Part shown: positions 24,488 through 40,131 of the stretch, piece by piece
Layout of the letters: each line of letters begins with the position of its first letter
How positions within the stretch are numbered: position 1 is the stretch's first letter
Assembly: GCF_034262375.1 (NCBI RefSeq)
Contig: NZ_CP139558.1
Coordinates: 3,224,001 to 3,288,000, forward strand
Direction: 5' to 3'
Source of the DNA: Mucilaginibacter sabulilitoris
Lineage (GTDB): Bacteria > Bacteroidota > Bacteroidia > Sphingobacteriales > Sphingobacteriaceae
DNA length: 64,000 bases
Translations under genes and position numbers: made by a program
Notes under the pieces: generated by a model
What the model was told of the DNA's origin: nothing
Database searches by the model: none
What the model saw: the letters and a program-made list of their open reading frames with translations, nothing else

Positions 24488-24495
24488 CTATTTAA
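24488..24495. repeat. Target-site duplication of IS copy 1, left (CTATTTAA)
   Basis: Identical 8 bases follow the right end at 26219-26226. Together they mark the insertion. Confidence 0.85.
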
Positions 24496-24535
24496 GAGGG
24501 CACTGAAAAAGTAGCTTAATAAGCTGAAGTATTTG

Positions 24536-24578
24536 AAGCGAGCAATAGAAAAGGCAACTTTTACTTGGTCGCTTTTTT
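24536..24578 (+). terminator. Inward-facing terminator-like hairpin, left end of IS copy 1
   Basis: AAGCGA and TCGCTT close a long loop and are followed by TTTTTTATTTT. Weak 6-bp stem, so low confidence, but positioned to stop read-in from the upstream plus-strand gene. A short palindrome AGCTTAATAAGCT lies just before it (24513-24525). Confidence 0.35.
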
Positions 24579-24661
24579 ATTTTAGGGGATGGGGTGATTT
24601 GTTAGGGCTGATATGAGCCGAAGGTGCAATTGATGACAAAGCAGCCGCTTTAACTTGGCAC

Positions 24662-26119
24662 TTAGCTTATCAGCTTGATGATTCTCTTAAGATTTACTGT
24701 AAAGATGGCCAACGCACCCTGCATCTGCATATTTTCGATACCGTAAGCTATTGCCCGGTCATAACCATGAACGTTTTTTAGCTCACTGTTCTTCGCTTCG
24801 ACCTTATATCTGTGTTTGATACTTTCTTTATACTCTGCCGTTTCCTGGAATGCCATCTGCTGCAGGTGCATGTCTGATTTAATGCTGACCGAATAGGTTT
24901 TAGCCTTCGCGCCGGGCTTATAGCAATGCTCTCTTAATGGGCATATCTTACATTTTTCAACATCAAAGTAATAGGTGTCTACCTGATTCTCGCCGATATT
25001 CTTTTTCCCGCCGCGTGCTTTTCGGATAGCCAGATGCCCTGCCGGGCAGACGAACATGCCTGCATCCTTATTATAGTCAAATCTGTCCTCATCCTTTCTG
25101 AAACCCTGAGTGATGGAAGGGTTTAGTTTGGCTACAATCTTTATCTCTTGAGTGCTCGTCAGTTCAAGATTGTCTTTTCCTGAATAAGCTGAATCGCCGA
25201 TAATCTTTTCTACGTTGATCCCATTGTTTTGGCTGATTTCTAAAAGTTTGGGAAGCTCCGGACCATCACCTTTTTCACCCGATGTGATTACCGCAGCGGT
25301 AATGATGCGTTCCTCTGTCATCGCCAAATGGGTCTTATAACCAAAGAATGAGCTATCAGCTGATTTATGGCCGGTTTTGGCATCCTTGTCTTTAGATTTA
25401 GATACTATATAGTGCCCCTGAGTATCTGCTACTGTCTCTTTCAATAGATTCAGTTTTTCTTTTACCGCAGGTATCTGGCATAACGGTTGATCGGCTTCAA
25501 TATACTTTTCCAATGCACTGCAATAAGCCAGTTCTTTTTCCAATTCGTCGGCTGTGTTCTTTTCGGGCATGCCTGCCTTCATATCTTCATCTATCGCATA
25601 AACAGCTTTGCGGAGTAACTTTGAACGTTCCCGCAATACTTCCAATGCTGAATACGGGTTGGATCTCGACAGGGAATGGGTAGCATCAACAATAATGGAT
25701 TTTGAGCGGATGAGCCCTTTTTCAATAGCTATGGTCACCGTTTTACCAATAAGCAGGTTTAACAGATCATTATCCTTTAGCCGCAGCTTTCTGAACTTGG
25801 TCAATGAACTCGGATCGATAGTTCCTTCTTCCGGTGACATATCCAGGAAATATTTGAAAGACATATCATACTGCGAACGCTCAACAACATCTACATCTGA
25901 AACCGTATAGATCGTTTTCAACAACAGATACTTGAACATCCGTACAGGGCTTTCCGCTGCCCGGCCGTTAGTAATGCTGTATTTGCTGATCAGTTCATCA
26001 TAGATAAATGTAAAATCTACCAGGTCATTGATCTTCCGAAGAAGATTGTCTTTAGGAACGATCAGGTCATAAAGACCTGAAAACGCGCTAAACTGTATCT
26101 GTTGTTGTTGGTTAAGCAT
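24662..26119 (-). CDS. IS1182-family transposase (copy 1)
   Basis: 485 residues. N-terminal DUF772 domain (VPKDNLLRKINDLVDFTFIYDEL, with SPVRMFKYLLLKTIY), then a DDE core: Asp145 in SIIVDATHSLSR, Asp309 in IIGDSAYSGKD and Glu441 in YKVEAKNSELKN. A Cys cluster near residues 390-399 (CKICPLREHC) may bind zinc, as in related enzymes. No frameshift or stop is visible, and both ends of the element are intact, so it looks capable of transposition. Confidence 0.93.
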   Translation of the reverse strand: MLNQQQQIQFSAFSGLYDLIVPKDNLLRKINDLVDFTFIYDELISKYSITNGRAAESPVRMFKYLLLKTIYTVSDVDVVERSQYDMSFKYFLDMSPEEGTIDPSSLTKFRKLRLKDNDLLNLLIGKTVTIAIEKGLIRSKSIIVDATHSLSRSNPYSALEVLRERSKLLRKAVYAIDEDMKAGMPEKNTADELEKELAYCSALEKYIEADQPLCQIPAVKEKLNLLKETVADTQGHYIVSKSKDKDAKTGHKSADSSFFGYKTHLAMTEERIITAAVITSGEKGDGPELPKLLEISQNNGINVEKIIGDSAYSGKDNLELTSTQEIKIVAKLNPSITQGFRKDEDRFDYNKDAGMFVCPAGHLAIRKARGGKKNIGENQVDTYYFDVEKCKICPLREHCYKPGAKAKTYSVSIKSDMHLQQMAFQETAEYKESIKHRYKVEAKNSELKNVHGYDRAIAYGIENMQMQGALAIFTVNLKRIIKLIS

Positions 26120-26159
26120 CTTTAGTGTCTTTCTTTCGACACTTTAAAATACAAAAAAC

Positions 26160-26187
26160 GGGGTAGAAAACCCTCGTCTTCTACTCC
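26160..26187 (-). terminator. Inward-facing terminator, right end of IS copy 1
   Basis: GGGGTAGAA and TTCTACTCC pair with one mismatch; on the minus strand it runs into TTTTTTGTATTTT. It would stop minus-strand transcription entering from the YbjQ gene side, substituting for the split terminator. Confidence 0.55.
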
Positions 26188-26218
26188 TTTTGTCCATTTG
26201 GACTTTTTCAGTGCCCTC

Positions 26219-26226
26219 CTATTTAA
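26219..26226. repeat. Target-site duplication of IS copy 1, right (CTATTTAA)
   Basis: Second copy of the 8-bp duplication, immediately outside the right inverted repeat. Confidence 0.85.
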
Positions 26227-36721: not shown

Positions 36722-39331
36722 TTGGCTAAAGATACTACCAAAGAAACCCCCTTAATGCAGCAATACAATGCCATAAAGGCTAAGTACCCTGGTGCTTTGC
36801 TGCTATTCCGCGTGGGCGATTTTTACGAAACCTTTGGCGAGGATGCCGTTAAAGCGTCGGGCATACTGGGCATTGTGCTCACCCGCCGGGCCAATGGCGC
36901 CGCCACCCATATTGAGCTGGCCGGCTTCCCGCACCATTCGCTCGAAACTTATTTGCCCAAACTGGTACGGGCCGGGCAGCGTGTAGCCATCTGCGACCAG
37001 CTCGAAGACCCAAAGACTACCAAAACCATTGTAAAGCGCGGCGTTACCGAACTGGTTACCCCCGGCGTGGCTACCAATGATAACATACTGCACCAAAAGA
37101 GTAATAACTACCTGGCCTCGCTCCATTTTGAGAAGAACACTATAGGCATTGCCCTTATTGATATTTCAACCGGCGAGTTCCACACCGCGCAAGGCAACAG
37201 CGACTATATTGACAAGCTGCTGCAAAGTTTTTCGCCCAGCGAGGTGATATACCCCAAAAGCCGCTCGCGCGATTTTAAGGATACCTACGGCGACAGCTTT
37301 TACACCTACGCGCTCGATGAATGGCCCTACAGCGGCGATTATGCCAATGAAACGCTACTCAAGCACTTTGGTGTAAAATCGCTCAAAGGGTTTGGGATTG
37401 ATAAGCTTAACCTCGGTATAATAGCTGCAGGTGTGGCTATCCATTACCTGAATGAAACGGAACACCGCAACCTGCAGCATATATCATCCATCAGCCGTAT
37501 TGAGGAAGACCGTTATTTGTGGATAGACAGGTTCAGCATCCGCAACCTCGAACTGGTAGGCTCGGCCAACGAGAACGCCAAAACCCTGGTTGATGTGCTT
37601 GACCATACCTGTTCGCCCATGGGAGCCCGCCTGCTGCGCCGCTGGATAGTGATGCCTCTGAAAGAGATAAAACCCATCAACGACCGACTTGGGGTGGTTG
37701 AATACCTCATAGCTCAGGAAGAGCTGCGTGAAAACCTGCAGCAATACATTCGCCAGATAGGCGACCTGGAGAGGCTCATTTCAAAAATAGGTTTACAACG
37801 GGCCAACCCGCGCGAAGTGTGCCAGCTTAAAAAGGCGCTGATTGCCATCGGCGAAATTAAAAAAATAGCCGAAACCTCCCCAAGCCAGCCGCTAAGGGCC
37901 ATAGGCGAGCAGCTAAACCCCTGCACACTCATCTGCGAGAAAATAGAAAAGGAACTGCACCCTGAGCCCCCGGTAATGATAGTAAAAGGCTCGGTAATGA
38001 ACGAGGGTATTAATGAGGAACTGGACAGGCTGCGCAAGATCGCTTTCGGTGGTAAGGGCTATTTGCTCGAGATCCAGAAACGCGAAGCCGAGGCAACGGG
38101 TATCCCATCGCTTAAAGTATCGTTTAACAATGTGTTTGGCTACTACCTGGAAGTTACGCATAGCCACCGCGATAAGGTGCCTACCGAATGGATCCGCAAG
38201 CAAACGCTGGTAAATGCGGAGCGATACATTACCCCCGAACTCAAAGAATATGAAGAGCAGATATTAGGTGCAGAAGAAAAGATACTGGCGCTGGAAACCC
38301 GCCTGTACAACGAATTGCTTTATGCCCTTGCCGAATATATTAAGCCTATACAGCTTAATGCCCAGCTTATAGCCCGTTTGGATGTGCTGCTTAACTTCGC
38401 TACCATCTCCATTAAAAACTACTACGTAAAGCCGGAGATGAGCGAAAGCAAACAGCTGGATATTAAAGGCGGCCGCCATCCGGTGATTGAGAAAAACCTG
38501 CCGCTTGGCGAAACCTATATCACCAACGACGTTTACCTGGATTCGGAAACACAGCAAATCATCATTATTACCGGCCCTAACATGGCAGGTAAATCGGCCC
38601 TGTTGAGACAAACCGGTCTGATTGTTCTTATGGCGCAAATGGGCTGCTTCGTACCGGCTAAATCTGCTTCGATAGGTTTGGTTGATAAGATATTTACCCG
38701 GGTGGGTGCATCGGATAACCTGTCATCGGGCGAATCAACCTTTATGGTGGAGATGAATGAAACCGCCAGTATCCTGAATAACCTGTCGGACAGGAGCCTG
38801 ATCCTGCTTGACGAGATTGGCCGGGGTACCTCAACTTACGATGGTATTTCCATTGCCTGGTCCATTGCGGAGTATTTGCATAACCACCCGGCCGCCAAAG
38901 CCAAAACGCTTTTTGCCACACACTATCATGAACTCAACGAATTGAGCAACAGCTTTAATCGCATCAAAAACTTTAATGTTTCGGTAAAAGAGGTTGGCCA
39001 CCAGATCATTTTCCTGCGCAAGCTGATACCCGGCGGCAGTGAGCATAGCTTTGGTATCCACGTGGCTAAACTTGCCGGTATGCCGCCAAAAGTGCTTACA
39101 CGCGCCAACGAAATATTGAAGAAACTGGAAAACGAGCGTACCGGTGGGGAGCATATTAAGGAAAGCATCCGTAAAGTGCAAAAACAGGCTGTGCAGATGC
39201 AAATGTTTTCTATAGATGACCCTGTACTGGTGAAAATCCGCGATACCCTGAACAATCTTGACGTAAATACGCTAACCCCTGTTGAGGCCCTGATGAAGCT
39301 GGATGAGATACAGCGGGTTATAAAGAGTTAG
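36722..39331 (+). CDS. mutS: DNA mismatch repair protein MutS
   Basis: Recognises base mismatches and small loops and activates repair by ATP-dependent clamp formation. 869 residues, full length. The mismatch-binding F-x-E motif is FYE (residues 34-36) in [14 protein letters not shown]; Walker [12 protein letters not shown] is near residue 618, and Walker [17 protein letters not shown] near 693. The start is TTG at 36722: it is preceded by AAAAGGATAACC (Shine-Dalgarno-like AAGG, spacing about 7), an in-frame stop lies just upstream, and the resulting [11 protein letters not shown] matches the family N-terminus, whereas ATG starts are too far inside. It is followed by a terminator split by a MITE. 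Confidence 0.97.
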
Positions 39332-39346
39332 ATTAGATGTGCAGAT

Positions 39347-39365
39347 ATAAAACAAAGAGCCGGGT
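39347..39365. terminator. Left arm of the mutS terminator split by the MITE
   Basis: ATAAAACAAAGAGCCGGGT pairs perfectly over 19 bases with 39577-39595. Uninterrupted, the hairpin would have a 5-base loop and serve both mutS and the convergent gene at 39592. Confidence 0.85.
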
Positions 39366-39372
39366 AATAGAC
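39364..39372. repeat. Target-site duplication of the MITE, left (GTAATAGAC)
   Basis: The same nine bases follow the right end at 39570-39578. Confidence 0.85.
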
Positions 39373-39569
39373 GAGGGCACTGAAAAAGTCCCGGAAAATC
39401 CGGCAAAAATGAAGGGGTTGTTCAATAAGCACGAACAACCCCTTTTCCTTGTCTTATAGGCCTACAAGTCTCATCGCCGAGTCGTATAAACGATTCTCAA
39501 CGTATCAAATTGATTTTTTTAAGCCCTCCTTTTTACCTCACATATTAATTGGACTTTTTCAGTGCCCTC
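39373..39569. mobile_element. 197-bp MITE related to the IS1182-like element
   Basis: Inverted repeats GAGGGCACTGAAAAAGTCC (39373-39391) and its complement (39551-39569) are the same as those of the IS at 24496-26218 over the first 17-20 bases. No coding capacity. Flanked by a 9-bp duplication GTAATAGAC. It splits a bidirectional terminator and carries its own strong hairpin at 39412-39444. It is probably mobilised by the IS1182-like transposase. Confidence 0.85.
39412..39444 (+). terminator. Terminator-like hairpin inside the MITE
   Basis: AAGGGGTTGTTC and GAACAACCCCTT pair perfectly (12 bp) around nine bases, followed by TTCCTTGTCTT. It would stop transcription entering from mutS and could replace the split terminator. 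Confidence 0.65.
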
Positions 39570-39578
39570 GTAATAGAC
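39570..39578. repeat. Target-site duplication of the MITE, right (GTAATAGAC)
   Basis: Second copy of the 9-bp duplication, immediately outside the right inverted repeat. Confidence 0.85.
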
Positions 39579-39595
39579 CCGGCTCTTTGTTTTAT
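39577..39595. terminator. Right arm of the mutS terminator split by the MITE
   Basis: ACCCGGCTCTTTGTTTTAT, complementary to 39347-39365; it overlaps the stop codon of the convergent gene at 39592. Confidence 0.85.
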
Positions 39596-40131
39596 TCAAC
39601 TTTCAGTTTGCCTTCAATAGAATCATCAAGCGTTTTACCTATAGCGGCGCCTGCTAATTGTTTTATGAATGCTATGGCATTGCCGTGTTTGTTATCCCAA
39701 TAATAACCTTCAGTTGGTTCAACTTTTATAACAGATATACGCGGATCGTCCTTACCTTCTGTAAACCAGACTTTTAGTATGGGCTCCCAAAGTTCGTCGA
39801 TCTTCTGTTTATCATCGCTAACGGTGGCTATACCATAAATGTTTAGAAAATCAGAATGTGCCGATCCCTGGAATAACAGGTGCACCATTGGGTCGGTTGA
39901 TAGGTCGCTGTTCTTGTGGCTGTCTTTAGCGCTCAAAAACCATAAGTTTCCTTCATCGTCTACCTTTTGCACGGACATAGGGCGTACGGAGGCAGGGATA
40001 CCTGTTTTAATATTGCTCAGGAAAAAACAGCTTTTGGCGCTGTTTACTAATTCTTTGATCTTTGAAATGGCCTCGGGGCCGCCTAAATCTTTAAAATTAT
40101 CTTCGGGTTGTTGTTGATTAATACTGTCCAT
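39592..40131 (-). CDS. Pyridoxamine 5'-phosphate oxidase-family (general stress protein 26-like)
   Basis: 179 residues. Split-barrel flavin-binding fold: the segments FFLSNIKTGIPASVRPMSV, LWFLSAKDSHKNSDL and VHLLFQGSAHSDFLNIYGIATVSDD are the GSP26 pattern. The family binds FMN/FAD and is linked to stress response; enzymatic role unclear. It is convergent with mutS, and the terminator arms of the mutS hairpin overlap its stop. Confidence 0.92.
   Translation of the reverse strand: MDSINQQQPEDNFKDLGGPEAISKIKELVNSAKSCFFLSNIKTGIPASVRPMSVQKVDDEGNLWFLSAKDSHKNSDLSTDPMVHLLFQGSAHSDFLNIYGIATVSDDKQKIDELWEPILKVWFTEGKDDPRISVIKVEPTEGYYWDNKHGNAIAFIKQLAGAAIGKTLDDSIEGKLKVE

Follow-up and report, generated by a model that had tools for sequence, protein, structure and literature searches.

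A probable MITE of an IS1182-family insertion sequence at the centre of a split terminator hairpin in Mucilaginibacter sabulilitoris

The window, by which we mean the whole stretch of 64,000 nucleotides of Mucilaginibacter sabulilitoris DNA that was analysed, carries a mutS gene (36722-39331; NCBIfam, 1032 bits) and, downstream of and convergent with it, a gene for a PNPOx-like protein (39592-40131; Pfam PF16242). An intrinsic terminator between the two genes is split: its 5' arm, ATAAAACAAAGAGCCGGGT, lies at 39347..39365 and its 3' arm, with a T run, at 39579..39595, both read directly on the + strand. The intervening element of 197 bp, GAGGGCACTG...CAGTGCCCTC (39373..39569, + strand), in which no ORF of at least 90 aa was found, is flanked by two copies of a 9-bp target-site duplication, GTAATAGAC (39364..39372 and 39570..39578, both read directly on the + strand). 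It begins with the terminal inverted repeat GAGGGCACTGAAAAAGTCC (39373..39391, + strand) and ends with the opposite repeat (39551..39569, - strand). Inside it are a terminator-like hairpin, GAAGGGGTTGTTC-9-GAACAACCCCTT(TT), which covaries among relatives (39411..39445, + strand), and the motif ACGATTCTCA (39490..39499, + strand), which is conserved in the MITEs of three genera. When the flanks are rejoined, a perfect 19-bp stem with the 5-base loop AATAG is obtained, just as the preliminary description of this DNA had stated, and this hairpin is the mutS terminator. Folding prediction for the inserted copy leaves the split arms paired around the folded element. In the congener G022, mutS and the same neighbour gene are separated by an intact terminator that has no insertion; it provides the only clean empty site with that neighbour, as in most congeners the mutS terminator is unrecognisable or other sequence stands in its place.

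The partner of this element lies elsewhere in the window (24496..26218, - strand), in the centre of another terminator, and is flanked by the duplication CTATTTAA (24488-24495 and 26219-26226). It encodes a transposase of 485 aa (24662..26119, - strand) that scores 360.6 bits against NF033551, for which the cut-off is 270, and it thus belongs to the IS1182 family. The 197-bp element is identical to this insertion sequence (IS) over 19 bases at the left end and over 21 at the right, and 17 bp of these ends are common to the IS copies genome-wide. Being short and non-coding, with 19-bp terminal inverted repeats and ends shared with an autonomous element of the same genome, it has the properties of a MITE, as had been proposed. 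We consider it likely that the element at 39373-39569 is a MITE of an IS1182-family insertion sequence, a judgement made jointly with that on the targeting mechanism discussed below. The IS copies apparently contain two hairpins as well, each with a T run: inside one end the hairpin follows the transposase gene, and inside the other it precedes the start of that gene; these were read by eye in 15 copies, with folds computed for the hairpin after the transposase gene. Two IS copies, L125 and L169, have one end tandemly duplicated (repeat at 1-24 and 88-111), and these resemble the duplicated ends described for IS1272.

A whole-genome search of the 7.55-Mb host genome recovered eight MITE copies, all at least 99% identical, each of the others differing from the window copy at no more than two positions and three of them (L003, L005 and L008) lying in reverse orientation. 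The same genome contains 16 IS copies; their identity to the window copy ranges from 80 to 97%, and they form several sequence groups. All 24 insertions have the 17-bp ends in common. Twenty-two are intergenic, most of them no more than about 50 bp from where a neighbouring gene ends, and 14 lie between convergent gene pairs; L014 and L023, the only two within ORFs and the true exceptions among the 24, have a weak hairpin or none. The usual layout is an A run, a GC-rich arm, the 8 or 9 duplicated bases and the element, followed on the far side by the duplicated bases again, the complementary arm and a T run. A duplication of 8 or 9 bp, in one case with a single mismatch, was found at seven of the eight MITE copies. 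Because GC-rich coding DNA folds well, plain folding energy discriminates weakly, and centred arm pairing was used in its place. By this measure, the arms are complementary at 9 or more of 12 positions in 20 of the 24 insertions, compared with 0.22% of 399,160 background positions taken from stretches amounting to 1.2 Mb (binomial p about 7e-50). Swapping arms between sites lowers the share with such pairing from 83% to 36%. L018 and L024 score low and yet are visibly hairpins, with the loop off-centre or longer.

The same arrangement extends well beyond the host. When species genomes were scanned, related transposases turned up at 76 loci in Bacteroidota and Bacilli; ends, located by the end consensus, and flanks were readable at most of them. 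A pattern search for paired ends at MITE spacing matched 11 of 149 congeners, one of them the host, and 21 of 400 genomes across the order, with hits in three genera. MITE relatives of the same layout, 181-198 bp long, are present in three genera of Sphingobacteriaceae, in about 25 species altogether, and nearly all of the roughly 40 copies read from them sit in terminator-like hairpins with duplications of 8-9 bp. The search of related genomes that the preliminary description had called for therefore found copies in quantity, and its claim that MITE and IS share a target choice stands, both being nearly always in terminator hairpins. After removal of duplicates, the pooled set from Bacteroidota and Bacilli comprised 121 sites. 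Arms paired at 9 or more of 12 positions mark 92 of these as dyads (background 1.4%). The dyad centre coincides exactly with the centre of the duplication in 50 of the 92 and falls within 1.5 bp of it in all 92; an A or T run accompanies every one of these dyads, and 78 have both, as expected of intrinsic terminators. Among the 29 sites below the hairpin cut-off are several clear hairpins that the score missed, for example those with imperfect stems, and the true exceptions are few (L112, L121 and L014). The duplication measures 8 bp at 77 sites and 9 bp at 27, while none is detectable at 15; the 9-bp duplication of the earlier account is correct for the window copy, but as a general length 8 bp is the usual value. 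None of the outcomes which that account had named as speaking against it (no other copies, copies in unrelated sequence, duplications of other lengths without hairpins) was encountered as a pattern, only a few single copies outside hairpins.

Several individual sites deserve mention. In Bacteroides fragilis, L110 and L131 represent one terminator in two strains that carries the IS in opposite orientations, with duplications of 9 and 8 bp, which points to two separate insertions. The flanks of a plasmid copy, L147, are common with those of L110. L144 and L145 are one insertion in two B. fragilis strains, and in one copy an unrelated 10-mer has taken the place of the left flanking bases. At the MITE copies L218, L219 and L235, the flanking bases are inverted rather than direct copies and form perfect inverted-repeat flanks, possibly through quasi-palindrome correction.

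What the target looks like can be described quite closely. Loops range from 3 to 10 bases across targets and the duplication remains at 8-9 bp; as its length is constant while loop length varies, the strands are cut with a constant offset about the dyad rather than at the loop edge. The flanking base profile has an A run that peaks 9-12 bases outside the duplication and elsewhere only weak preference. Measured from the centre, the A and T runs are fixed at 12-14 bp, more sharply than in ordinary terminators: at 13 bp, 42 of 42 positions in the host's own targets are A or T, compared with 75 of 146 in ordinary terminators, i.e., hairpins downstream of ORFs in the same genome that were chosen regardless of run position (p 8e-11). 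Non-hairpin targets keep this spacing, with 12 of 13 scoring at least 5 of 8 against 6.7% of the background. Among intergenic sites having both the A/T spacing and GC-rich arms, dyads make up 31% of the background and 87% of targets. Therefore, hairpin arms and A/T spacing both matter in targeting, subject to selection on the surviving copies, and the split between structure reading and sequence reading is a statistical one. This fixed spacing, as well as the terminator-like hairpins carried by both MITE and IS, goes beyond what had been described for this locus.

Considering the copies, ends, duplications, centring, arm complementarity, A/T spacing and covarying internal hairpin as read from sequence, it is likely that the IS transposase moves both IS and MITE into dyad centres by reading arms and A/T runs. 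The enzyme would bind the ends of MITE and IS alike, and both elements would be inserted at the dyad centre of bidirectional intrinsic terminators, the strands being cut 8 (or 9) bp apart and symmetrically about the dyad. Target choice would be made by the transposase, which appears to read two cues on the DNA: the complementary arms and the A/T runs about 13 bp to each side of the centre. The hairpin that each element carries may then restore termination, so that an insertion between convergent genes would do little harm. In its most specific form, which we put forward tentatively as somewhat short of an even chance, the transposase measures a composite duplex target made up of A/T runs about 13 bp from the dyad centre and self-complementary arms. 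Each insertion of IS or MITE would then exchange one terminator for another, and selection would retain the MITE's own terminator because it renders insertions nearly neutral.

It is also possible, though we regard it as rather unlikely, that the structure recognised is an extruded cruciform or single-stranded hairpin, cut by the transposase at the loop edges as in pathway c of Wan et al. 2017, with the A/T runs merely aiding extrusion. Duplication of the loop was proposed there as a possible outcome (PMC5678879), and the pairing of arms whose sequence varies would suit such a mechanism. However, duplications of 8-9 bp at loops of 3 to 10 bases mean that the cuts are not at loop edges, the A/T runs are not just present but stand at a fixed distance from the centre, and targets without a hairpin retain this spacing.

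The proposal that the MITE is mobilised by the IS transposase had been coupled to the expectation that the MITE tracks the presence of the IS, and this holds in part. A close IS is present in 9 of 24 other MITE-bearing genomes, one of the nine having broken IS copies only, compared with 10 of 172 genomes without the MITE (p 6e-5; the cut-offs differed slightly between the MITE and IS searches), but it is absent from 15 of the 24, and either another helper or fossil copies are needed in those 15. The association is real but loose, and the IS transposase probably mobilises the MITE. Transfer by a different IS1182 subgroup, e.g., the second one of the host genome, seems improbable to us: such a group does exist in at least seven copies and many MITE-bearing genomes are without a close IS, but its ends (GAAGCCGTCTCATAAG) are different and have no visible duplication, and the outer 19-21 bp of the MITE are common to the GAGGGCACTG group.

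The hairpin within the MITE is itself terminator-like. Flanked by A and T runs, it lies near one end in 18 of 18 representative MITEs from three genera, and in an alignment of 17 of these hairpins, changes on both sides occur at 8 of the 12 outer pairs, a number reached in 0 of 500 shuffles; these are compensatory changes. Termination may be retained after insertion by way of the carried hairpin. In the MITEs examined, the motif CGATTCTNAG (39490-39499 in the window) is found with small variations about 70 bases from one end; a search for it in the IS gave nothing except one match, in opposite orientation, in the Bacteroidales IS L112. Conservation of both hairpin and motif across three genera could indicate that the 197-bp unit serves chiefly as a conserved RNA or as a domesticated regulatory element and is not primarily mobile. 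We consider this very improbable, since the unit ends like a transposon, almost every copy is flanked by an exact duplication, unrelated sites contain near-identical copies, and an Rfam search of the MITE returned no credible family, only a chance hit with an E of 0.56. Vertically inherited orthologous positions of the MITE across species were not seen here either. Still more doubtful is the idea that insertion is nearly random and that copies survive only at harmless places just after genes: it accords with the intergenic position of 22 of the 24 host copies, but harmless intergenic space does not account for centring within 1.5 bp of the dyad, for A/T spacing sharper than in ordinary terminators or for dyads 15-fold enriched by odds among intergenic motif sites. 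Selection as the sole cause is refuted; it probably adds to the intergenic bias, as selection against genic insertions inflates the intergenic share and not the centring.

From a broader point of view, these elements suggest a route to a near-harmless transposon, one that lands in a terminator and brings another. A landing rule based on structure, in an element this compact, could be of use for inserting DNA between genes, and the insertions provide an inexpensive means of testing how a transposase locates a safe site.

Group IIC introns insert at intrinsic terminators as well; they are RNA-based retroelements that insert beside the stem-loop. The targets are thus alike, but the introns have neither a transposase nor a central duplication. 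Insertion sequences that enter REP palindromes also have extragenic palindromes as targets (PMC1525189); REPs are repeat families of shared sequence, whereas the arms of the present targets vary in sequence between sites. BOX, RUP and SPRITE MITEs are short, non-coding intergenic repeats, with SPRITE containing a terminator-like sequence (PMC10969869). In the literature searched, we found no MITE that combines targeting of the terminator dyad centre with a covarying terminator-like hairpin.

With the IS1182 family in general, the present group has in common the NF033551 transposase, the terminal inverted repeats and a preference for palindromes. PMC4923244 and PMC5678879 cite Siguier et al. 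2015 for a mention of palindromic targets in this family, and PMC5678879 notes that detailed data are not given there. That passing remark now becomes a measured, testable target rule drawn from more than 100 natural sites. Neither the fixed A/T spacing nor a terminator-carrying MITE was found for the IS1182 family in the literature searched, which took in openly accessible papers and also yielded nothing on this mode of targeting beyond IS1272.

The closest known system is IS1272/TnSha1, an IS1182-family element of staphylococci that targets inverted repeats, several of which are confirmed transcription terminators (Furi et al. 2016, PMC4923244; Wan et al. 2017, PMC5678879). The two groups have one transposase family and hairpin targets alike. 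However, insertion of IS1272 costs the target part of its stem-loop, by replacement or deletion, and leaves no duplication (PMC4923244; PMC5678879), whereas the present group keeps both arms and duplicates 8-9 bp at the dyad centre, with none of the stem-loop replacement typical of IS1272. Wan et al. did draw a pathway that would duplicate the loop, for which no example was given (PMC5678879); the outcome is similar, but the duplication here does not equal the loop. Thus, terminator-hairpin targeting was already known from IS1272, and what is new is the central insertion with duplication in which both arms are kept. The second IS1182 subgroup of the host (L257, L264, L267, L270, L273, L275 and L277; e.g., C1:6908954-6910444) has its ends directly on A/T runs; both ends could be read in six copies, and in three of these the flanks show complementarity over 11-16 bases. 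Like IS1272, members of this subgroup seem to take the place of the terminator stem, and a single genome would then contain two uses of terminators, one in which the centre is duplicated and one in which the stem is replaced.
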